DNA from: Candidatus Gastranaerophilales bacterium
GTDB lineage: Bacteria; Cyanobacteriota; Vampirovibrionia; Gastranaerophilales; Gastranaerophilaceae
Direction of reading: 5' to 3'
Length of the DNA stretch: 38,598 nucleotides
NCBI GenBank assembly: GCA_944322865.1
Contig: CALUQJ010000009.1
Location: 1 to 38,598 of the forward strand
A model generated the notes under the pieces. It was not told where the DNA came from. It searched no databases and was given only the letters and a program-made list of their open reading frames with translations. The position numbers and the translations under genes are program-made. Shown here piece by piece: positions 3,880 through 35,981 of this stretch. Positions within the stretch are counted from its first letter, which is position 1. Every line of letters starts with the position of its first letter.

Positions 3880-5175
3880 TTACAAAATTTCACAATAAAT
3901 ATGTCCGTTTTGGTAACTTACGATTTTAGCATTTTGAAGAGTGTTTGCCAAAGTTGTATCTTTGGAATTTGTTATAAGAGTAAGGTAATTTCTTGTAATA
4001 CCTTTCATAAAGCCTGTTTTTTTATCAGGGTGTTTTTCAACCAGTATCTCTCTGACTGTTCCGATATTTTTGTTTATAAATTCTCCGTATTTGTGTGCGG
4101 AAATTGCTTTAATAATTGCAGCACGGCGCTCTTTTTCCTTTTCCTCAACCTGATTAGAACTGGTGGCGCCAACTGTTCCTTTACGTATTGAATACGGGAA
4201 GGTGTGGATTTGTGATAATCCTGAGTTTTCAAGATTTTTTTGTGTAATTTCAAAATCTTCATCTGTTTCACCTGCATATCCGGTTATTATGTCGCTGCCT
4301 AAAAACGGAAGGTCAAACATAGTATTGATTTTATCTATTTGCTCAAGATATTTTTCAACGGTATAAAATCTGTTCATAGATTTCAGAGTTTTATTGCAGG
4401 CAGATTGAAGAGATAGGTGAAAATGCGGGCAAAACTTTTCTGATTGTGCTAAAAACTCCAGCAAATCGTTTGTAATTTCAAGCGGATTAAGCGAGCCTAA
4501 TCTGTAACGCGCAATGGTTGTTTTGTTTTCAATTTCTCTTAATAAATCAATAAGTACAAGTCCTAAATCTTTTCCCCATAACCCTATATGAATACCTGTC
4601 AGAACAACTTCTTTGAATCCGTGAGCGGACAGATTATTTATCTGTTCAATTATAAATTCGATATCAGCACTTCTGCTTTTCCCGCGTGCAAAAGGGATTA
4701 TGCAATATGAGCATCTGTTGTCACACCCATCTTGAATTTTTACACTCGCACGGGTTTTTGTCATATCTTGCAGAACAGCTTTGTGAAAAGTTTTAAGCTG
4801 CATAATATCCGATGCGGCACTTTTTATATTGTCTTTTAATATATTTTGTATGGTTTCGTATAAATTCAGTTTTTCATCATTGCCAATAACATAATCAATA
4901 AAATCATTTTGCAAAAGCTGTTCTTTTTCAATTTGAGCAAGACAGCCTGTTAATATGGTTGTTATACCTGATTTTTTGTGCTTTGCATTTCTTAAAATGT
5001 ATAATGCTTCGTGGTCACTTTTTCCGGTAACAGTACAGGAATTTAGTACAAAAATATCGGCTGTTTCAATATTCTCAGCCATTTGCAATCCGTTTTTAAT
5101 AAGATTTTCTTTGATAATCGCGCTTTCAAACTGGTTAGCTTTACAGCCCATTGTGTGAATGTAAAATTTCTTCAT
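3880..5175 (-). CDS. mtaB: tRNA (t6A37) methylthiotransferase MtaB
   Basis: A radical-SAM methylthiotransferase of 431 residues that converts t6A to ms2t6A at tRNA position 37 in the cytoplasm. Domain order is an N-terminal UPF0004 domain (KKFYIHTMGCKANQFES, then NSCTVTG and TGCLAQ supplying the auxiliary-cluster cysteines), the radical-SAM CxxxCxxC motif in GCDNRCSYCIIPFARG, then a C-terminal TRAM-like region. The open frame extends 51 codons further upstream, but that extension is unconserved and runs over the divergent promoter. The family start MKKFYIHTMGC is at 5175. There is no Shine-Dalgarno before it; instead a -10 TATAAT ends exactly 6 nt before the ATG, so the mRNA is predicted to be leaderless. 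Confidence 0.93.
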   Translation of the reverse strand: MKKFYIHTMGCKANQFESAIIKENLIKNGLQMAENIETADIFVLNSCTVTGKSDHEALYILRNAKHKKSGITTILTGCLAQIEKEQLLQNDFIDYVIGNDEKLNLYETIQNILKDNIKSAASDIMQLKTFHKAVLQDMTKTRASVKIQDGCDNRCSYCIIPFARGKSRSADIEFIIEQINNLSAHGFKEVVLTGIHIGLWGKDLGLVLIDLLREIENKTTIARYRLGSLNPLEITNDLLEFLAQSEKFCPHFHLSLQSACNKTLKSMNRFYTVEKYLEQIDKINTMFDLPFLGSDIITGYAGETDEDFEITQKNLENSGLSQIHTFPYSIRKGTVGATSSNQVEEKEKERRAAIIKAISAHKYGEFINKNIGTVREILVEKHPDKKTGFMKGITRNYLTLITNSKDTTLANTLQNAKIVSYQNGHIYCEIL

Positions 5176-5181
5176 TTCTGT

Positions 5182-5210
5182 ATTATATGTAAACAAAAAA
5201 TAATTGTAAA
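5182..5210 (-). promoter_or_regulatory. mtaB promoter with predicted leaderless start
   Basis: On the minus strand: -35 TTTACA (5210-5205), a 17-bp spacer, -10 TATAAT (5187-5182), then ACAGAA and the ATG at 5175. The expected +1 coincides with the A of the start codon. Confidence 0.7.
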
Positions 5211-5247
5211 TATTTATGAATTTAAAACTACGATTATAGCAAAAAAA

Positions 5248-5276
5248 TTTACTTTCGTGTTTAAATATGGTACAAT
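5248..5276 (+). promoter_or_regulatory. Promoter of the gene at 5302
   Basis: TTTACT (5248-5253), a 17-bp spacer, TACAAT (5271-5276). Transcription would begin near 5283, giving a short leader that contains the AGAAGG ribosome-binding site. It is divergent from the mtaB promoter. Confidence 0.5.
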
Positions 5277-5301: not shown

Positions 5302-6117
5302 ATGCAGGTACAAGCAATAAATAATCAATCATTCAGCGGTAATACAAGAGAAGCAGGCAGCAAAAGACGAGCAAATATAGATGCTGCTATAGCTTTAAGT
5401 GATAGCGATTTAAGACGCGCGGCATTCTATCAGGCATGCTTGCAGACTGATGAAGAAAAACATAATAAAATCGACAGAGCTGCTATTTTGTCATTACCTG
5501 TTATTGCGGCGGCAAGAGATTCTATTTTGAGCCGCGGGCAGGATGTAAAATTTTTCAATGGTGTACTTTATTCAAGCCCTGCTGCACGTGTAATTACCGG
5601 TTTAAAAACACTGGGACGCTGGGGCGCCGCAATAGGTATTGCTGCCGGCGTTGTTGCAGCTACGGACAAATTGGAAGAAAAATCACCTAAATTCAGACGA
5701 TTTGCAAAAGAGCAGCCATATACAATGTTAGCAGGTGCATTTGCAACTGCTGTCGGGATTAATTACGCAGTACAAAAGGGTGTAAATAAACTCGGTGAAA
5801 AAATTATAAACAAAGACATTCAGAAATCTTGGCATAATATAAGCTTAAAAGTAGTTAAATTTAATGAAAATAAACTTGTTAAGAATGCTGTTAAAAAATA
5901 TGCTAATCTGACTGCAAAAATGCATCCTGCATTAAAAGGTATTGGCGCAATAGGTTTGGCTGCTGCACCTTTAGTAATCGGTGTCGGTACAATTATTCAC
6001 TCTTTGAACCATTCTTCTGTAAGAAATAAACAGGCAGTACAGAATTATACAAACCTGAAAACTGCACAGGCTGTTTTGGCTAATGCAAGAGCCAGAGAAC
6101 TCGCTGAATTGCAGTAA
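5302..6117 (+). CDS. Hypothetical three-helix membrane protein with SFSG N-terminal motif
   Basis: 271 residues; I do not recognise a family. The N-terminus MQVQAINNQSFSG fits a motif seen in two other proteins of this window. A polar helical region (about 20-75) is followed by three small-residue-rich hydrophobic helices (about 101-121, 139-158 and 212-233) separated by basic loops, and a C-terminal helix rich in Ala, Asn and Gln. It is likely an inner-membrane protein. The start chosen is the second of two close ATGs: AGAAGG ends 7 nt before 5302 but only 1 nt before 5296. A much longer upstream extension of the frame overlaps mtaB and its promoter and is rejected. It converges with adenine deaminase. 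Confidence 0.75.
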   Translation: MQVQAINNQSFSGNTREAGSKRRANIDAAIALSDSDLRRAAFYQACLQTDEEKHNKIDRAAILSLPVIAAARDSILSRGQDVKFFNGVLYSSPAARVITGLKTLGRWGAAIGIAAGVVAATDKLEEKSPKFRRFAKEQPYTMLAGAFATAVGINYAVQKGVNKLGEKIINKDIQKSWHNISLKVVKFNENKLVKNAVKKYANLTAKMHPALKGIGAIGLAAAPLVIGVGTIIHSLNHSSVRNKQAVQNYTNLKTAQAVLANARARELAELQ

Positions 6118-8138: not shown

Positions 8139-8150
8139 TATAATAGAAAT
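8139..8150 (+). promoter_or_regulatory. -10 element giving a predicted leaderless start for the gene at 8151
   Basis: TATAAT (8139-8144) is followed by AGAAAT and then the ATG at 8151. No Shine-Dalgarno is present. The -35 region is weak. Confidence 0.5.
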
Positions 8151-8600
8151 ATGGATTATAGAGAAAAAGCTGAAAAATTATTTTTAGATGGTTATAACTG
8201 TGCACAATCGGTTTTTTGTGCATTTAGTGAAGATTTAGGGCTGGACTTTGATACAGCACTAAAATTGTCCTCATCATTCGGCGGAGGCATGGGAAGATTG
8301 CGTGAAGTTTGCGGCGCAGTAAGTTCAATGTTTATGATAGCAGGGTTGAAATACGGTTATACAGAACCTGCGAACAAGGAAGTTAAGACTGAGCATTATG
8401 CGCGTATTCAAAAGCTTGCAGAAGAATTTAAAGCTAAAAATGACACTATTATTTGCCGTGAACTCTTAGGGCTTGACGTAAAAGTGGACAGTCCGATACC
8501 TGAGGACAGAACAGCCGAATATTACCAAACAAGACCATGCCAAAAGCTTGTTGGTGACGCTACTGAAATTATAGCCGCTTATATTGCTAAAAACAGTTAA
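8151..8600 (+). CDS. C-GCAxxG-C-C family protein (redox-active/metal-binding)
   Basis: 149 residues from the chosen start MDYREKAEKLF. It has the family cysteines in order: YNCAQSV, EVCGAVS, a Cys in IICRELLG and RPCQKLV, plus the GGGMG segment. Proteins of this family are small and common in anaerobes; they are thought to bind metal or a redox cofactor but have no settled function. An in-frame ATG eight codons upstream exists, but the family normally begins at this methionine, and a TATAAT hexamer sits exactly 6 nt before it with no ribosome-binding site. The gene converges with the secreted protein gene with one base between stop codons. Confidence 0.85.
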   Translation: MDYREKAEKLFLDGYNCAQSVFCAFSEDLGLDFDTALKLSSSFGGGMGRLREVCGAVSSMFMIAGLKYGYTEPANKEVKTEHYARIQKLAEEFKAKNDTIICRELLGLDVKVDSPIPEDRTAEYYQTRPCQKLVGDATEIIAAYIAKNS

Positions 8601-11609: not shown

Positions 11610-13088
11610 TTAATGTCCAATCTTTTCGGTTTCCATATCTTTTATCGGTTTACTTTCTTTAACATAGTTATTAAGTTGTTTAGTTGCGGCTTTGTAATTA
11701 TTGACTGTTGCGTTACCGCCAAGACAGCCGCCCTGACATGCCATAACTTCAATTAAGTTACCGATATCACAAACACCGTTTTTAGCATATTTTTTAAGAT
11801 CTCTTATTGACTGTTTGTTCAATCCGTCAATAAGCACCGGATGAGCCGGTATTTCTTCCGGTAAAAGAGCCTGAACAGCTTTTGCAACACCGCCGGTTTG
11901 AGCAAAGTTACGTCCTTCTGCTGACGCCTCTGTTTTGAAAGAGGATTCGCCGCAGGTATCGACCTGAATATTCAAAGCAATGAACCATGCCCCGACTTCT
12001 TCATAATTCAAAACATAATCCACATTCGGATTTTGCAAAGCTTCACGTCTTTTTGCTACACAAGGTGAGAAAAAGACAGTTATTGCATCCGGATGTTCTT
12101 TTTTAACTATCTCAGCAGTATAATAAAGCGGAGTTTTTGTGTCTGATACAAATGGTTTAATTTCAGGCAAATGCTTAGCGATAAGTTCGTTGTATCCTGC
12201 GCAACAAGAGGTAGTCATAAATTCAGCGCCGTGCTCCAGACGTTCAACAAATTCAGCCGCTTCATTTTTGGTTGTTACATCTGCCCCTTGAGCTACTTCA
12301 TAAACATCACTGAAACCTAATTTTAATACCGCTTCATGCAACTGTTTCGGAGTACAAGGCAGTTGTCCCATAATAGCCGGCGCAAGCATGGCGATTACTT
12401 TTTTCCCTGATTTAATTGCTTTCAAAACGTCAATGATCTGACTTTTTTCGTGTACCGCGCCAAAAGGACATGCAGCAACGCATTTACCACAAGAAATACA
12501 TTTTTCAAAGTCGATTTTAGCATGCCCGTCTTCACCTTTTGCAATGGCACCGACAGGACAGGCACTTTCACAAGGAACAATGATTTTGGTAATTGCCTGA
12601 TAAGGGCACACCTGAACACACATTCCGCAATTTTTACATTTTTCCGGATCTATTACTGATTTGCCGTTCTGAATACTTATTGCTCCGAATTTACAAGTAT
12701 TAACGCAAGGTCTTGCAACGCAGCCCTGACAAAGATCAGTAACGTAAATTCTTGAAGGTACACATCCTTTGCAAGCAGTAGTTAGGACAGTAAGCGGATG
12801 TTCTTCCGGTTCTTTTCTGTCCAGAGCTTTATTTGCAAGTTCTGATAAAAGAGTGCTGTCATCGGTTTCTTCAATAGAAAAACCCAACCCTGCAACAGTT
12901 CTGTCACGCAGTATTGCTCTTTCTTTGTATATACAGCATCTGTAAGGAACTTCACTGCCTTTTGGACGCATATCAAAAGGTATCATCCTTGTTTTTTCTT
13001 CAAAATTATCACTCAAAAATGAGCGTATTAATCTAACAAGAATTTCACGTTTCAAATGAGATGTTTGTTTAGGGGTATTAATTGCCAT
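11610..13088 (-). CDS. [FeFe]-hydrogenase, group-B-like catalytic subunit
   Basis: 492 residues. The N-terminal ferredoxin region (about 105-210) holds several Cys clusters: CxxC/CxxxxCxxxC at 120-132, CKNCGMCVQVC (151-161), CESACP (173-178) and CISCGKCVAACP (197-208). The H-cluster domain has L1 TSCCAGY (293-299), L2 SPCVAKRRE (341-349) and L3 EVMACQGGC (447-455), giving H-cluster ligands C296, C343, C451 and C455 and the proton-relay C295. The L1 Pro of classic HydA (TSCCP) is Ala. The layout matches the monomeric group B family I recall as TIGR04105 rather than clostridial HydA1. It should couple ferredoxin to proton reduction or H2 oxidation in the cytoplasm. It has AAAGGA upstream and is the last gene of the operon. 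Confidence 0.88.
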   Translation of the reverse strand: MAINTPKQTSHLKREILVRLIRSFLSDNFEEKTRMIPFDMRPKGSEVPYRCCIYKERAILRDRTVAGLGFSIEETDDSTLLSELANKALDRKEPEEHPLTVLTTACKGCVPSRIYVTDLCQGCVARPCVNTCKFGAISIQNGKSVIDPEKCKNCGMCVQVCPYQAITKIIVPCESACPVGAIAKGEDGHAKIDFEKCISCGKCVAACPFGAVHEKSQIIDVLKAIKSGKKVIAMLAPAIMGQLPCTPKQLHEAVLKLGFSDVYEVAQGADVTTKNEAAEFVERLEHGAEFMTTSCCAGYNELIAKHLPEIKPFVSDTKTPLYYTAEIVKKEHPDAITVFFSPCVAKRREALQNPNVDYVLNYEEVGAWFIALNIQVDTCGESSFKTEASAEGRNFAQTGGVAKAVQALLPEEIPAHPVLIDGLNKQSIRDLKKYAKNGVCDIGNLIEVMACQGGCLGGNATVNNYKAATKQLNNYVKESKPIKDMETEKIGH

Positions 13089-13138
13089 TTTTCATTTTTC
13101 CTTTGCTATTTTTGAGGCGGATGCCCGCCAATTACATG

Positions 13139-13402
13139 TTAACTTTCTTTTAGTTTGTTATCAATAGCGGTTAAAACTTTTTCAACAGTTGCTTCTTTGA
13201 TAACGTCATCATCAACTTTAACATACGGAGCTTTAGAAAATTCCCAGTCTATAGAGCACAATCCAAGACACGGAACTCCGGAAACTTCGACTTTGTTGCC
13301 GTATTTAGCAGGAACAATATCAATAAGCTCCTGTAAATTTGCAGACCCCATAACAAAACAAGTTGTACCTAAGCATACTTTAACACTAATTTTTTTATCC
13401 AT
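13139..13402 (-). CDS. Thioredoxin-like [2Fe-2S] ferredoxin (HydC/NuoE-like)
   Basis: 87 residues corresponding to the cluster-binding half of NuoE/HydC proteins. Ligand cysteines are in CLGTTC (C-x4-C) and CLGLC (C-x3-C). It lacks the helical N-terminal part of full NuoE. It lies between the phosphatase and hydrogenase genes and starts after an AGGAAGG site. It most likely shuttles or relays electrons for the hydrogenase; a NuoF-type NAD(P)H-oxidising partner is absent from the window. Confidence 0.85.
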   Translation of the reverse strand: MDKKISVKVCLGTTCFVMGSANLQELIDIVPAKYGNKVEVSGVPCLGLCSIDWEFSKAPYVKVDDDVIKEATVEKVLTAIDNKLKES

Positions 13403-13431
13403 TTTTTTACCTTCCTAACTGAGGGATTACC

Positions 13432-14595
13432 TCACATATATTGAACACTGACTTTTTTCAAATATTTATCCTGCAATACCGCAGCTATTTTTTTTACGAT
13501 TGTTTTTCTGATTTCAATTTCGATAGGCAGAGCCGGATCATAATGTGCCTGATTAAGTTTAGCGCCTACCATGAAATTAATACAGTCGCTGTCCAAGAAA
13601 AATTTTACCAGCTTTCCTGCTGCATTGTCAATATCATATGTGCCTGATTCTAAATATTCCAAAGCTTTGGTAAGAGTCAAAACACCTTCTGTTACCAGAT
13701 CAACCCCTTCCATATAGGAACATGCCGGTAATTTTCCGATACTAATTGTTTTTTCCATAGTGACAGGTCGGTTTAATTCCCGTGATATAAGATTTGCAGT
13801 AGTACCTCCGCAGATGGCTTTTTTACCTTTGAAGGTATCGAACATCATTGCATATTCAGCATCTTTATTCTGGTGGAAAGGCGGTCCTGTAAAGACAAGA
13901 GATTCGCGCGGCTCCCTAAAATACATCACGCAGGCTGAAATATCGTCTTTGGGCTGACGGCTTGTTTCAATATTTATAGCCTGCTGAACTATATATTGTG
14001 AAAGTTCTGTGCTTGAAATATCCGGATGCTCATCGAGTTTGTCTTTCACCAGAACTATTAACCCTTCGCGTCTGAGTCCGAGTTTTAATCGTCCGCCGCC
14101 AAGACCTGATTGGGTTACACCGTCAGAACAAAATATAAGTCTGTCGCCTAGTCTGAGTTTAATTTTGTATACTTTCATCTGCCTGTTTTTGAAGGTTTTG
14201 GATTTTATTAATTCAAATTCAGGCTGCATAACTTCGTTATTTCTAATCCATATAAATTGCGGATTACCTTCTTCAACGATTTTTACATCACCCTCATCAT
14301 TGCAATCTACAGCCGAAAATGTTGAATAGCTGATGTGACGAACTTTGCAGACTGGCAGAGAGTTCATAATTATTTTTGCGGCTTTTTTAATTGAAATTTG
14401 TTCATCTTCAATAAATCTTAAAAGCATTGTTGCAGTCATGCAAGATAAGATATTTGCCTTAATACCGCTTCCAAGCCCGTCCGAAAGAACTGCAATAAGC
14501 CGACCTTCATCCGGATATCTTTTTGATACAAAGTAATCGCCGTAAGCATTCTGGTTATATTTTTTTACCTGATGACAATCAATATCAATAAACAC
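13432..14595 (-). CDS. SpoIIE/PP2C-family serine phosphatase linked to sensory hydrogenase
   Basis: 387 residues. The first half is a SpoIIE-type PP2C phosphatase with metal-binding aspartates in LSDGLGSG (D39), FCSDG (D158) and PKDDIS (D217/D218). The second half (about 235-387) is a further conserved-looking domain of unknown role, not a membrane or REC domain. The GTG start shares one base with the TAG stop of the HydS-like gene (TAGTG), and AAGGAAG lies inside the upstream gene, so translation is coupled. Such phosphatases sit next to PAS-bearing sensory [FeFe]-hydrogenases in other anaerobes (group C type loci). The obvious inference is that the hydrogenase senses H2 or redox and this protein transmits it by dephosphorylating an anti-sigma-antagonist-like target, which is not encoded here. 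Confidence 0.85.
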   Translation of the reverse strand: MFIDIDCHQVKKYNQNAYGDYFVSKRYPDEGRLIAVLSDGLGSGIKANILSCMTATMLLRFIEDEQISIKKAAKIIMNSLPVCKVRHISYSTFSAVDCNDEGDVKIVEEGNPQFIWIRNNEVMQPEFELIKSKTFKNRQMKVYKIKLRLGDRLIFCSDGVTQSGLGGGRLKLGLRREGLIVLVKDKLDEHPDISSTELSQYIVQQAINIETSRQPKDDISACVMYFREPRESLVFTGPPFHQNKDAEYAMMFDTFKGKKAICGGTTANLISRELNRPVTMEKTISIGKLPACSYMEGVDLVTEGVLTLTKALEYLESGTYDIDNAAGKLVKFFLDSDCINFMVGAKLNQAHYDPALPIEIEIRKTIVKKIAAVLQDKYLKKVSVQYM

Positions 14596-16328
14596 TATTG
14601 TTCTTCCTTATTTTCAGCAGTATCATCATCGTTATCATCGTAATCGTTTGCGATAGAACTCAAAAGTGTTTCTGTTTCTACCATATGTTCACCTAAAAGG
14701 CAGGCAATTTCCTGTACGATTGAGATATTTTTGGTTATAACTTCATGGGCTTTTTGAGCAATTTTTTCGCGTGTATATTCAGTTTGTGTGACATCAGTTA
14801 TAACTGCCCCTACAATTTCATTAGGTTCAATTGTAAATGCATTAATATCAAACAGTTTGTTGTTAACAGAATACCGTTCTTTATGCAAATCTTTGCCGGA
14901 TTTAAGAATTGTTTTGAAGATATCCGCAAAGTCTACTATTCTTTCTATTGCCGCTCCGACAAGTCCATCCGGTCTGGCTTTGAATATTTCATACATATCG
15001 CCCGTAAACATTTTCATAAATGCATCATTGGCTTCTATGATATTCATGGAATTGTCAACCATAACAATTGCCGCCGGCATGCAGCGTATCATAGCAGCGG
15101 CTTTTCTCATTGCTATTTTTCTCATATAAGAGGCACACATAGAGGTTTCCGCATCCCCGTCAAGAAGAGCTTTGGCAAGATCACGGCAGGTAGCGTACCC
15201 GCAGCCGCCACAGTTAAGTTCATCATCTACAGAGTGTTTGCCGATTTTTTTCAAAGCTTTCAGAATTTCCTCAAGTGAATGCTGGGAAGTTACAACTTTT
15301 TTCGGCTGAATAGCGTAATCTACAACAGTTGAAGGCTTTTTAGGAATAACTTCACGTTCTTTAATTCCTGACAAAATATCTGAAACAATGCTAAGACCCG
15401 GTTTTTTGGTTGAATTACATGGACCAGCAATACAGCCGCCTTCGCAAGATAGTGCTTCTATAAAAATGGTTTTTTGAACATTTTCCGGTTTTAAATCATT
15501 TATGGCATGACTAAATTCTTCAATCCCTGAAATATTAATAAGCTGAATATCTTTTCTTACGCCAATTTTTCTGATAGTTTCGTTCATTCCGCCGTCTACA
15601 GGGTATAATGCCCCTTCGTACGCTTGAGAAGGCACGAATTTTGCGTTAGATGCAATATCTACAGTTGATATATCCGGGATTAAATCATTTACCCAGATTT
15701 TTAATTCCTCAAATGTAAGAGCGACATCTATCAAGTTTGAATAATCAGCCTCATTTTTTTTGCCGATACAAGGTCCGATAAAAACAATGCTGATATCATT
15801 TCCAAAATGTTCTTTAAGCATTTTAGCATGTGTCATAGCCGGCGATCCGATATGCGTAATACAATCAACAAATTCAGGACGATACAGTCTTATATAATCA
15901 ACAATAACAGGGCAGGCGCTTGAGATAAACAAACCTTTTTCCGCATTATTCAATATTTCTGCTGTTTTAATGGAAACTTCCTGAGCACCGAGTGCGGTTT
16001 CTGATACTTCTTTGAAACCTAATTTTTTCAAAATAGAAATCATTTTTTCGGAATTGTATTCAAAAACTCCGCTCCAGGAAGGTGCAAGCGAAACATAGAC
16101 ATCTTTTTTAGAATTAAGCAAATTTTTTGCTCTATCAATATCTACCCTGACACGTTTTGCATTGGCAGGACAGGTTATAACGCAATTCCCGCACGCAATA
16201 CACCGTTCAGGAATAACTGATGCGTGACCATTTTCTATTTTAATTGCTTTAACCGGACAATTTCTTATACATTTATAACAATCGTGACACTCATTAGATA
16301 ATGTGTATACTGCATGTTGTTTATCCAT
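14595..16328 (-). CDS. HydS-like sensory [FeFe]-hydrogenase with PAS domain
   Basis: 577 residues. Two [4Fe-4S] motifs lead (C14-C17-C20-C24 and C43-C46-C49-C53). An H-cluster domain (about 75-345) has L1 SSACP (136-140), L2 GPCIGKKNE (C187) and L3 SCEGGC (C295, C299). A further Fe-S domain has CGGCGYATC (C373, C376, C381) plus C398, and a PAS-like domain (about 405-525) precedes a charged tail. All four H-cluster cysteines are kept, but the proton-relay Cys is Ala138, as reported for sensory group C enzymes. Together with the PAS domain and the adjoining SpoIIE phosphatase this points to an H2/redox sensor rather than a producer. The ATG at 16328 is chosen over a TTG two codons upstream because AAAGGAT lies 8 nt before it. 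Confidence 0.85.
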   Translation of the reverse strand: MDKQHAVYTLSNECHDCYKCIRNCPVKAIKIENGHASVIPERCIACGNCVITCPANAKRVRVDIDRAKNLLNSKKDVYVSLAPSWSGVFEYNSEKMISILKKLGFKEVSETALGAQEVSIKTAEILNNAEKGLFISSACPVIVDYIRLYRPEFVDCITHIGSPAMTHAKMLKEHFGNDISIVFIGPCIGKKNEADYSNLIDVALTFEELKIWVNDLIPDISTVDIASNAKFVPSQAYEGALYPVDGGMNETIRKIGVRKDIQLINISGIEEFSHAINDLKPENVQKTIFIEALSCEGGCIAGPCNSTKKPGLSIVSDILSGIKEREVIPKKPSTVVDYAIQPKKVVTSQHSLEEILKALKKIGKHSVDDELNCGGCGYATCRDLAKALLDGDAETSMCASYMRKIAMRKAAAMIRCMPAAIVMVDNSMNIIEANDAFMKMFTGDMYEIFKARPDGLVGAAIERIVDFADIFKTILKSGKDLHKERYSVNNKLFDINAFTIEPNEIVGAVITDVTQTEYTREKIAQKAHEVITKNISIVQEIACLLGEHMVETETLLSSIANDYDDNDDDTAENKEEQ

Positions 16329-16720: not shown

Positions 16721-18010
16721 TTATAAAATCCTTGAATATATTTCGTTGATATTTTTCAAGAAATCTTCTTTGTTGAAAAGTTCGTCTATTTCAAGCGGAG
16801 TCAACAATTTTGTTACCTCAAAATCGTTAACAAGATTTTCCCTGAAATTTCCGTCATTTTCAAAAGCATCAAGCGCATTACGCTGTACAATTCTGTATGC
16901 CTCTTCTCTTGTTAAACCTTTTTCAACAAGTTTAAGGAGAACTTTTTGTGAAAAAACTATACCACCAAATTTGTCGGTATTTTTGAGCATATTTTTTTCG
17001 TGCACAACAAGATTTTGCACAATGTTGTTAAACCTGTTAAGCATAAAATCAACAAGGGTTAAACTGTCCGGAAAAATAATTCTTTCGGCAGAACTATGAG
17101 AAATATCACGTTCATGCCAGAGCGGTATATTTTCCAAAGCTACAATTGAATTAGCTCTTACAACCCGCGCAAGTCCGCATAAATTTTCACTCAACACAGG
17201 ATTTTTCTTGTGAGGCATTGCAGATGAACCCTTTTGATTTTTGCCAAATCCTTCCTCAACTTCAAGAACTTCTGTTCTTTGCAGGTGGCGTATCTCTGTA
17301 GCGAACTGTTCAAGAACACTTGCAATAAGTGCCAGCGACTGCATAAAATAAGCATGATAATCACGTGCTATAATCTGGGTTGAAATTCTTGCAGGTGTAA
17401 GCCCCAAATTTGTACAGGTAATTTTTTCTATATCCGGAGAAATATTACTATATGTTCCGACAGGACCTGATATTTGTCCGACTGAAATCTGTTCAAGAGC
17501 ATGGATAAAATTAGCACGCTGGCGTTCAAGAATATCAATCCAGTTGCAGATTTTTATTCCAAAAGTCATAATTTCCGCATGAACACCGTGCGAACGTCCT
17601 ATACAAACAGTTGTACGATGTTTATTGGCAAGTGCTTTCAAGGATTTTATAACTTCATCCAGATCCTGTACGATAAGCTTTCCGCTGTCTTTTATTTGAA
17701 GAGCAAATGCAGTGTCTATAACATCTGAACTCGTCATCCCCACATGCATATACTTTGCATATTTGCCTAAATTTTCATTCACATTTGTCAAAAATGCAAT
17801 GACATCATGATGAACTTCAGCTTCTATCTCATCAATTCTTTTTATGTCAAATTTTGCAAGTTTTTTGAGTTCCTGAATATCTTCTTTAGGAAAATCTCCG
17901 TGTTCTGCGTAAGCCTCGGCAACCGCAATTTCAACATCTAAATAATATTGGAATTTCGAATTGAGATCCCAGATCTTTTTCATTTCTTCGCGTGAGTATC
18001 TGTCTATCAT
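16721..18010 (-). CDS. purB: Adenylosuccinate lyase
   Basis: 429 residues. It cleaves SAICAR to AICAR and adenylosuccinate to AMP in purine synthesis. The fumarase/aspartase-superfamily signature SSAMPHKKNP is intact, as are the MTSSDVIDT and GRSHGVHAE segments that line the active site. The N-terminus MIDRYSREEMKKIWD matches the family. A methionine six codons further upstream lies within the promoter and is rejected. There is no Shine-Dalgarno; an extended -10 (TGT-TACAAT) ends exactly 6 nt before the ATG, predicting a leaderless mRNA. Confidence 0.95.
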   Translation of the reverse strand: MIDRYSREEMKKIWDLNSKFQYYLDVEIAVAEAYAEHGDFPKEDIQELKKLAKFDIKRIDEIEAEVHHDVIAFLTNVNENLGKYAKYMHVGMTSSDVIDTAFALQIKDSGKLIVQDLDEVIKSLKALANKHRTTVCIGRSHGVHAEIMTFGIKICNWIDILERQRANFIHALEQISVGQISGPVGTYSNISPDIEKITCTNLGLTPARISTQIIARDYHAYFMQSLALIASVLEQFATEIRHLQRTEVLEVEEGFGKNQKGSSAMPHKKNPVLSENLCGLARVVRANSIVALENIPLWHERDISHSSAERIIFPDSLTLVDFMLNRFNNIVQNLVVHEKNMLKNTDKFGGIVFSQKVLLKLVEKGLTREEAYRIVQRNALDAFENDGNFRENLVNDFEVTKLLTPLEIDELFNKEDFLKNINEIYSRIL

Positions 18011-18016
18011 AATTTT

Positions 18017-18025
18017 ATTGTAACA
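18017..18025 (-). promoter_or_regulatory. purB extended -10 with predicted leaderless start
   Basis: Minus strand TGT-TACAAT, then AAAATT and ATG at 18010. A TTTTCA -35-like hexamer lies 18 bp upstream. The preceding gene ends in its own terminator, so purB needs a promoter here. Confidence 0.6.
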
Positions 18026-22930: not shown

Positions 22931-23293
22931 ATGAATGTATCAAAAGTTTCAATGATGAGTCCAATGGTATTTAAGGCACAGACAACAATCAAAGCCCCTG
23001 AAAGTTTGCTAAGTAAAGAAGACAGGGATTATTTTGAATCAGTAGGTTCAGAAATAGGTAAGCCGACTGATACAATAAACATTACCATAAGTGATCTTCA
23101 CGATACTAAACGCAATCCCAATGTGAAAACATACACAGCAACCAAAGAGTATCATTTTGAACAGCCGACTCAACTGACTTCAATAAAATCAAATATTGAA
23201 GTTCCTTATATCAAAAATGGCGAAGTTGTCGAAAAAAATTCACCAAAGAATTATATAGCAAATGCCTTGAAAAAATTAATACAATCTGAATAG
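22931..23293 (+). CDS. Hypothetical small protein with VFKA N-terminal motif
   Basis: 120 residues, no recognised family. The N-terminus MNVSKVSMMSPMVFKAQ matches the short motif shared with the proteins at 5302 and 2851. The rest is polar and beta-rich (NITISDLHDTKRNP, KTYTATKEYHFEQPTQLTS) with no membrane helix. A good AAAAAGGAG site lies 7 nt before the ATG. It follows mnmG after 88 bp that contain a weak AT-only hairpin (22854-22871). Confidence 0.7.
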   Translation: MNVSKVSMMSPMVFKAQTTIKAPESLLSKEDRDYFESVGSEIGKPTDTINITISDLHDTKRNPNVKTYTATKEYHFEQPTQLTSIKSNIEVPYIKNGEVVEKNSPKNYIANALKKLIQSE

Positions 23294-29706: not shown

Positions 29707-30849
29707 TTATAAAATCGTTATATTATCCCGCGTAATAATTGCATCGTAATTCTTGAACCCTAATATTTCAAGAATATTATCGGAATGACAGCCTACAACT
29801 TTTTTGCAAGCCTCTGAATTATAATTTACAATCCCGCGCGCAAACTCTTTTTCATTCTCATCAAGAATTGAAATTACATCACCCTTGTCAAATTTATTGA
29901 TAACTTTTAAAACCCCGATAGGCAAAAGACTTTTGCGTTTTTCGATAAGGGCTTTTTTTGCGCCGTTGTTTACGACAATTTTACCGATAATGTTAGTGGC
30001 ATAACCGATCCAGCGTTTCTTGTCTGAGAGAAATTCACCCTGCGGCAGGAACATTGTACCAAGCTCTTCACCATCGAATATTTTTTTAATAACATACGGA
30101 ATTTTTCCGTTTGCAATAAGGACTTTGCCGCCAAAACGTGTTACGAGCCTTGCAGCTTCAAGTTTAGTCGACATACCTCCGCGTCCGCCTGAAGATACCC
30201 CTTGCGCGAGAGATAGTATTTCATCTGTCACTTCAGGAACCTCTTTTATAAGTTTTGCATCAGGATTTTCTTTAGGATTAGCGTCATAAAGCCCTTCTAT
30301 ATCAGAAAGAATTATTAACAAATCGGCATCAAGTTCGCTTGCAACAAGTGCAGAGAGTTTGTCGTTATCTGAAAAACACACAAGTTTATTTTCATATCTT
30401 TGAGAAATTTCCAGAGTTGAAACCGTGTCATTCTGATTTATAATCGGGATAGTGCCTAATTCAAGTAGTTTGTTTAATGTTGTTCTGAGGCTTAAATATC
30501 TCTGACGAATAGAGAAATCATCTTCTGTTAGAAGTATTTGTGCTGCAACGAGTCCGTAAGCATCAAACCCATTTTCGTAAACAGACATCAATTTTCCTTG
30601 CCCGATAGCAGCACATGCCTGTTTCATAGCCATGCCTTCGGTGCTTTCAAGTCCGAGTCGTTTTTTCCCCATACCGACTGCCCCTGATGTGATAAGAATA
30701 ACTTCTTTACCCTGTTTAACCAATGCCGCCATATTTTCTATAAAAGAAAATACCCGCGGCAGGGATATATGCCCGTCGTCACTTCTTAAAACATTTGTAC
30801 CGACTTTAATAACAATACGTTTTGCATTTATAAATTCTTTTCTGTCCAT
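29707..30849 (-). CDS. proB: Glutamate 5-kinase
   Basis: 380 residues. First step of proline synthesis. An amino-acid-kinase domain (RIVIKVGTNVLRSDDG, ILITSGAVGMGKKRLG, SSGGRGGMSTKLEAARL) is followed by a C-terminal PUA domain (about 275-370), the standard two-domain ProB that is feedback-inhibited by proline. There is no Shine-Dalgarno; an extended -10 TGC-TAAAAT ends 6 nt before the ATG, predicting a leaderless transcript. Confidence 0.97.
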   Translation of the reverse strand: MDRKEFINAKRIVIKVGTNVLRSDDGHISLPRVFSFIENMAALVKQGKEVILITSGAVGMGKKRLGLESTEGMAMKQACAAIGQGKLMSVYENGFDAYGLVAAQILLTEDDFSIRQRYLSLRTTLNKLLELGTIPIINQNDTVSTLEISQRYENKLVCFSDNDKLSALVASELDADLLIILSDIEGLYDANPKENPDAKLIKEVPEVTDEILSLAQGVSSGGRGGMSTKLEAARLVTRFGGKVLIANGKIPYVIKKIFDGEELGTMFLPQGEFLSDKKRWIGYATNIIGKIVVNNGAKKALIEKRKSLLPIGVLKVINKFDKGDVISILDENEKEFARGIVNYNSEACKKVVGCHSDNILEILGFKNYDAIITRDNITIL

Positions 30850-30855
30850 AGTTTA

Positions 30856-30864
30856 ATTTTAGCA
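30856..30864 (-). promoter_or_regulatory. proB extended -10 with predicted leaderless start
   Basis: Minus strand TGC-TAAAAT, then TAAACT and ATG at 30849. The -35 is poor, as allowed for extended -10 promoters. Confidence 0.55.
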
Positions 30865-34636: not shown

Positions 34637-35602
34637 TTAGAATTTCCGTTTCTTGATTTCATCCAAAATTTTATTGGCAGCAGTTCCCGGAGCAGACTTA
34701 ATCACGCATCCGGCAGCACAAGTATGTCCGCCGCCGCCAAATACAGAACATATTTCTGCAACATCTACATCTTTACTGCGCATAGATACTTTAGAAATAC
34801 GTGTGCCTATTTCACGTACAATAAATGAAACTTTTGTTGTTTCTATTGCACGTAATTTTTCGGCAAGACCTTCGGTACAATCATCACCAGCCGAAAATCT
34901 TTCCATATCTTTTTTATAAATAATTGAATATGCAATTGTATCATTGTTAACGAATTTTGCATTACTTATACAATATGCCTGAAACATAACCATGCTTTTA
35001 GAATTTGTTTCATAGCAGTTTTTGTAAACTTCGACAGCATCAACGCCCATAGCGACCAGATCAGCCGCTGTTTTAAAGGTGACCGGCGTTGTATTGCTGA
35101 ATCTAAAAGAGCCGGTATCAGTCAGCACTGCAGTATAAAGACAGGTTGCCGCGGCATTATTGATTTTCCATTTTAAATCCTTCATTAATCCGTAAAGCAA
35201 TTCTCCTGCTGAACTTGCGTTTACATCTACAATGTTTAAATCAGCATATTGGGTGTTAGTTTTATGATGGTCAATATTTACTGTATATAAAGCTTTATCA
35301 AAGAGTATTTTAGCATCTTCAAATCTGTTTTCTGCTGCAATATCAACGCAGATGACAAGATCATAAACCATTGATTTATCATACATCTCAACAAGTTTTG
35401 CTCGTGATATTTCCGGCAAAAATTCGTATATTTTAGGGACTTTTGACAGAACCAGCATGTCACATTTCTTTTTAAAATTTTCTTCTATTGCGTGATAAAG
35501 TCCGCACATACTGCCAAGCGTATCTCCGTCCGGATTAATATGAGAAATTATCAATATATTTTTTGCTGATTTTATGATATCATTAAAGTTAGAACAATCC
35601 AT
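34637..35602 (-). CDS. nrnA: DHH/DHHA1 phosphoesterase, NrnA-like oligoribonuclease/pAp phosphatase
   Basis: 321 residues. Metal ligands are in HINPDGDTLGS, CVDIAAENRF and the DHH motif NIDHHKTN; the C-terminal DHHA1 domain has VFGGGGHTCAAGCVI. NrnA-type enzymes degrade 2-5-nt RNAs (including pGpG from c-di-GMP turnover) and pAp. The ATG at 35602 is preceded by TGA-TAAACT with 6 nt between, a weak extended -10 and again no usable ribosome-binding site (AGGA abuts the ATG). It is divergent from the DUF721 gene, with 34 bp between starts. Confidence 0.9.
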   Translation of the reverse strand: MDCSNFNDIIKSAKNILIISHINPDGDTLGSMCGLYHAIEENFKKKCDMLVLSKVPKIYEFLPEISRAKLVEMYDKSMVYDLVICVDIAAENRFEDAKILFDKALYTVNIDHHKTNTQYADLNIVDVNASSAGELLYGLMKDLKWKINNAAATCLYTAVLTDTGSFRFSNTTPVTFKTAADLVAMGVDAVEVYKNCYETNSKSMVMFQAYCISNAKFVNNDTIAYSIIYKKDMERFSAGDDCTEGLAEKLRAIETTKVSFIVREIGTRISKVSMRSKDVDVAEICSVFGGGGHTCAAGCVIKSAPGTAANKILDEIKKRKF

Positions 35603-35636
35603 TCCTAAAGTTTATCACAAAAATACATCAGCGGAT

Positions 35637-35981
35637 ATGTCAAAAAAAATTCTATACACAAACTTTACAACAACCGAAGAGCTGGTAGAAACACTGCTAG
35701 GCAAAACAGAAATTAAAAAAGCGATTACGCGCAATAACTTATACAAATTCTGGGAAAAGGCAGCAGGGAAAAAATTTGCTGACCGCTCAAAGCCTTATTC
35801 AATGCTGGGAGGAGGAGTTATGGTAATAGCCTGTGAAAACGCGATTGTGGCACAAGAACTTATGCTAAAAAAAACTCAATTGCTTGTTAAATTGGAACCA
35901 TATCTCAAATCACTCAAATTAAATGTAAAAGATTTGCGTTTTGATCCTAAAAAATGGATTGCAGAAAATGATGAAGAATAA
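35637..35981 (+). CDS. DUF721 (DciA-like) protein
   Basis: 114 residues from MSKKILYTNF. The core NNLYKFWEKAAGKKFADRSKPYSMLGGGVMVIACENAIVAQELMLKKTQLLVKL matches the DUF721 domain, which in DciA binds the replicative helicase DnaB for loading. DciA proteins often have extra domains; this is a minimal version. The frame is open a further 21 codons upstream, but that overlaps the divergent nrnA start region. A GCGGAT weak site precedes the ATG. Confidence 0.75.
   Translation: MSKKILYTNFTTTEELVETLLGKTEIKKAITRNNLYKFWEKAAGKKFADRSKPYSMLGGGVMVIACENAIVAQELMLKKTQLLVKLEPYLKSLKLNVKDLRFDPKKWIAENDEE

Follow-up and report, generated by a model that had tools for sequence, protein, structure and literature searches.

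A -10 element at 6 nt from the start codon predicts leaderless genes in a family of Candidatus Gastranaerophilales

Background

How does translation begin on a gene that has no Shine-Dalgarno (SD) site and whose -10 promoter element ends 6 nt before its start codon? The question is raised by mtaB of a Candidatus Gastranaerophilales bacterium (Vampirovibrionia/Melainabacteria), which lies in a stretch of 38,598 nucleotides (the window). TA-led leaderless genes with this spacing are well described for Actinobacteria and Deinococcus-Thermus, as the original prediction had noted for Actinobacteria and Deinococcus, and for some lineages of low G+C (PMC3160421, PMC12340547). In other bacteria, translation of leaderless mRNAs begins mostly with the 70S ribosome binding directly (PMC9031893). 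According to Zheng et al. (PMC3160421), neither SD-led nor leaderless genes are used by many cyanobacterial genomes, and the table in which their survey lists groups with leaderless genes does not name Cyanobacteria.

The mtaB promoter

The arrangement TTTACA-17-TATAAT-ACAGAA-ATG is present on the minus strand at 5210..5173 without an SD site, exactly as originally described (Table 1), and it is the top-scoring promoter-like site (11/12) between 4500 and 9000. Alignment of mtaB orthologs begins at residue 1, and those of the closest MtaB matches that carry an organism name come from Candidatus Gastranaerophilales. The description of mtaB as the best case of a recurring pattern was only partly right, because the TG and the T at -1 that mark most members of the class described below are missing; mtaB stands out in the class by its strong -35 element and is not its most typical member. 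The base at -1 is A, and the run AGAAATG gives candidate starts at -2, -1 and +1. As TG and T(-1) are missing, the mtaB transcript could begin 1-2 nt ahead of the ATG, and its first base may lie anywhere from -2 to +1.

Farther upstream, an AAATTTTTTGCTA element (5236-5249, -74 to -61 of mtaB) is strongly conserved in near relatives; it is outside the predicted leaderless promoter and may be part of the divergent gene or of regulation. Proteins of unknown function with a similar short N-terminus (..QSFSG / ..MVFKA) are encoded at 5302-6117, for which there was no NCBIfam match, and at 22931-23293, both adjoining housekeeping genes.

Table 1. Promoter elements and genes with a -10 element 6 nt before the start codon in the window
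Feature	Position	Strand	Remarks
-35 element TTTACA of mtaB	5205..5210	-	TT at -35/-34 in 93%/91% of 44 near relatives
T-run of mtaB, -19 to -17, upstream of -10	5192..5194	-	Also in near orthologs and in the genome-wide class
17-nt spacer between TTTACA and TATAAT of mtaB		-	Read from the letters
-10 element TATAAT of mtaB, -12 to -7 from ATG	5182..5187	-	Spacing kept in orthologs
ACAGAA between TATAAT and ATG of mtaB		-	Read from the letters
ATG of mtaB	5173..5175	-	Predicted transcription start at its A or 1-2 nt earlier, from the spacing rule
mtaB, tRNA t6A37 methylthiotransferase, 431 aa	3880..5175	-	TIGR01579, 385 bits, above cut-off
TATAAT (8139-8144), 6 nt, ATG 8151; small cysteine-rich protein	8139..8153	+	Posterior 0.76
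TGtTACAAT, 6 nt, ATG 18010; purB (TIGR00928)	18008..18025	-	Posterior 0.92
TGcTAAAAT, 6 nt, ATG 30849; proB (TIGR01027)	30847..30864	-	Posterior 0.91
TGaTAAACT, 6 nt, ATG 35602; NrnA-like phosphoesterase gene	35600..35617	-	Posterior 0.87

Genome-wide statistics

The genome that contains the window (1.80 Mb, 99.6% complete, 36% G+C) was examined for the spacing over 1.40 Mb, window included, with gene starts picked from coding potential only and thus blind to the motif. TATAAT was found 6 nt before the ATG of about 21-22 genes (21/790), versus 0-8 genes at each other spacing up to 49, and TAnnnT at 6 nt before about 62-63 genes, versus 12 at 5 nt and 21 at 7 nt; the distance count of -10 hexamers has the sharp peak that had been predicted. 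The original prediction had staked itself beforehand on an excess at 6 nt compared with shuffled upstream sequence, and the excess was strong: dinucleotide shuffles placed TATAAT at this distance 1.4 +/- 1.1 times (maximum 4 in 60 shuffles) against the 21 observed, and TAnnnT 29.5 +/- 5.0 times against 62 (790 genes). Since about 30 TAnnnT cases at 6 nt are expected by chance, single weak members may be false, and one such as 35602 could be due to chance.

Gene starts were also described by a model with SD, -10-at-spacing-d and 'none' components (d = 0 to 29; 1026 genes). The log-likelihood gain was 94 at d = 6 and no more than 6 at any other d, and the component weights were 75% SD, 10% -10 at 6 nt and 15% neither, which supports the proposal that the organism uses two initiation modes. 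In the Deinococcus radiodurans MP1 control (150 kb) the gain was greatest at 6 but small, 6 log units; in Escherichia coli K-12, the other control, the spacing scan gave nothing at 6 nt. The 3' end of 16S rRNA was not found in the part of the window's genome that was analysed.

TAnnnT occupies -12 to -7 at 8151, 18010, 30849 and 35602, where recurrence of the pattern had been reported, and these four genes and mtaB are all assigned by the model to the class with -10 at 6 nt (posterior 0.76-0.93). Altogether 5 of the 31 called genes of the window have TAnnnT at this spacing (chance P = 0.0055). The small cysteine-rich protein at 8151 has no NCBIfam name, and the NrnA-like gene scores 155.7 bits with NF053633, below the cut-off of 350. 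The predicted leaderless promoter of the latter (ATG 35602, minus strand) overlaps the 5' end of a divergent ORF (ATG 35574 or 35637) within 35574-35640, so that the same bases would serve two start regions. Elsewhere in the window, at 11610-16328, translations alone point to a gene for a SpoIIE-like phosphatase flanked by genes that resemble [FeFe]-hydrogenase and an Fe-S/PAS sensor form.

Features of the class

The start model assigned 94 genes to the class with -10 at 6 nt, and among these several features stand out that were absent from the model: TTnAC at -35 to -31, a T-run at -19 to -17, TG at -15/-14 (52% versus 5% of SD genes) and T at -1 (84% versus 44%). The predicted class promoter is a complete extended -10 promoter of the sigma-70 type with the usual pyrimidine-purine step falling at the ATG. 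At TGnTATAAT sites far from any ATG, the sixth base downstream is T in 57% (P = 4e-5) and the seventh is a purine in 64%, which points to a start point of the same geometry that does not depend on an ATG. An A/U-rich ribosome-binding signal without promoter function is ruled out as the nature of the motif, since the -35 element, TG and T(-1) emerge unmodelled.

Class genes differ from the others in their surroundings as well. Their upstream neighbour is divergent in 57%, versus 32% of SD genes (P = 5e-6), and a same-strand gene lies within 50 nt in 11% versus 30%, as would fit promoter-proximal genes each with a promoter of its own. ATG is the start codon of 92/94 class genes versus 774/846 (P = 0.025). 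The N-termini compared with family profiles agree with them (Era, RuvC, RibD, PurB and FolD align from residue 1), and only 10/89 members have an upstream in-frame ATG, which indicates that the proteins of this class do begin at the assigned start codons. Examples include era, recF, ruvC, uvrB, mutS2, gmk, mnmA, mnmE, folD, ribD, ribF, dxr, purB, proB and mtaB.

Conservation and taxonomic range

The string TGnTATAAT-N6-ATG occurs in 15-38 copies per genome (mean 25.9) in 49 genomes of the family, versus a mean of 5.2 copies at spacing 5 in the same genomes; 67 other genomes of the phylum have about 2 copies at either spacing. Conservation among orthologs was assessed with mtaB and purB. Among mtaB orthologs, 34 of the 44 near ones and 13 of the 22 far ones have TAnnnT at precisely 6 nt; the -35 element and the T-run are also conserved, with T at -19, -18 and -17 in 95%, 95% and 91% of near orthologs, and SD-like sites are found in 1/44 near and 0/22 far orthologs. 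In a second sample of 30 family genomes, which includes the window's own genome and may overlap with the 44 near and 22 far orthologs, mtaB has TAnnnT at 6 nt in 24/30, at 5 nt in none and at 7 nt in 4/30. A -10 element 6 nt before the start is present in 18 of the 30 purB orthologs, the window's own among them, and 14 of these 18 also carry TG. Another 5 have an SD-like site; none of the 30 combines the two, and purB looks as though it has switched between leaderless and SD modes across the family. Together with the family-wide counts, mtaB and purB bear out the expectation that the spacing would be conserved in related genomes.

Proposed initiation mode and alternatives

The exact spacing, the features of the class, the family-wide counts and the conservation of mtaB and purB make a leaderless mRNA, or one with a leader of at most 1-2 nt, the best explanation, and the leaderless status of the class is a strong prediction. 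A housekeeping-type (sigma-70-like) promoter would place the start of transcription 7 nt past the -10 element, on the A of the ATG, giving an mRNA without a 5' leader (in mtaB, with a leader of at most 1-2 nt). Because a leaderless mRNA cannot accommodate an SD site, the ribosome would have to recognize the 5'-terminal AUG and initiate there, by the 70S or another route; operon-internal and most promoter-proximal genes have SD sites instead. The promoter elements, their spacing, the statistics, the conservation and the lineage restriction are observed; where the mRNA begins and how ribosomes engage it we infer, and we consider it very probable that RNA starts at the A of the ATG, within 1-2 nt in the case of mtaB, and that of two initiation modes the leaderless one serves about a tenth of the genes.

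A real promoter from which RNA starts 1-3 nt before the ATG, making a tiny leader that would in practice act like none, is an unlikely but respectable alternative. Besides the AGAA and missing T(-1) of mtaB and its four orthologs with TAnnnT at 7 nt, it draws on a second family of the taxonomic class (L192-L209), which has few SD sites and a weak -10 peak at 7-8 nt rather than 6 (small sample), suggesting leaders of 1-2 nt there. However, the genome-wide peak is exactly at 6 and has all but vanished at 7, and in 84% of members the T(-1)/A(+1) step identifies the ATG as the start site. It is improbable that mtaB is transcribed mainly from a promoter farther upstream, with an SD-less leader and the adjacent -10 element as a secondary one: although the window has a perfect TGCTATAAT about 60 nt upstream of mtaB, relatives conserve only TTTTTTGCTA at that site and not the hexamer, and although a TACAAT that overlaps the -35 element, 27 nt before the mtaB ATG, is conserved in near relatives, it lacks a suitably spaced -35 element and is accounted for by the TTTACAAT -35. 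Conservation of the adjacent -10 element and T-run at a fixed distance from the ATG would, moreover, be needless for an unrelated promoter. That the motif arises by chance in an AT-rich genome, or as a by-product of A/T enrichment before starts, is scarcely credible even though TAnnnT is common at 36% G+C, and as a general account it is ruled out by the shuffles (above all for TATAAT), by the neighbouring spacings, including spacing 5 in the same family genomes, and by an AT-rich control of the same phylum (G110, 37% G+C) from which the pattern is absent.

Comparison with known leaderless genes

The predicted leaderless genes resemble the TA-led genes of Actinobacteria and Deinococcus-Thermus in three ways: the first T of TAnnnT precedes the start by about 12 bp, leaving a gap of 6 nt; an SD site is missing; and SD-led genes occur alongside them. 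They differ in belonging to a low-GC genome of another phylum, with a fuller TGnTATAAT and T-run, almost only ATG starts, and a share of about 10% of genes, whereas the survey averages are 19% and 39% (Zheng et al. 2011, PMC3160421). Lactococcus and other Lactobacillales are likewise of low G+C and have leaderless genes in which TG directly precedes TAtAAT (PMC3160421), but that lineage is unrelated, and in the present genome a TTnAC -35 element and a T-run are visible too. Oxygenic cyanobacteria are of the same phylum, and 19 leaderless TSSs are reported for Synechococcus elongatus UTEX 2973 (PMC6091082); in contrast to the window's genome, two presumed oxygenic cyanobacteria from other families of the phylum have no peak of -10 elements at 6 nt (small samples). 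For Melainabacteria and related names, no report of leaderless genes was found in the literature searched, and the TA-led kind is known elsewhere; this is therefore a known kind of gene in a lineage that appears to be new for it.

Implications

Leaderless genes would thus be extended to a large, mostly uncultured gut lineage of non-photosynthetic relatives of cyanobacteria, within a phylum described as largely using neither SD nor leaderless initiation. On the genomes compared, the predicted second initiation mode is found throughout the family and not in the photosynthetic cyanobacteria sampled. For the Gastranaerophilales as a whole, we think it reasonably likely that a lineage-wide second mode, with an extended -10 element at an exact distance, serves about 10% of genes, including many for DNA repair, tRNA modification and cofactors, that individual genes switch between leaderless and SD-led states across the family, and that elsewhere in the phylum, as far as sampled, the mode is rare or missing. 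The rule of a -10 element at 6 nt can be used to set or correct the start codons of about a tenth of the genes in these metagenome-assembled genomes, and the evolution of initiation becomes testable, as there are many genera to compare in which individual genes, purB for one, appear to have switched between the leaderless and SD modes.
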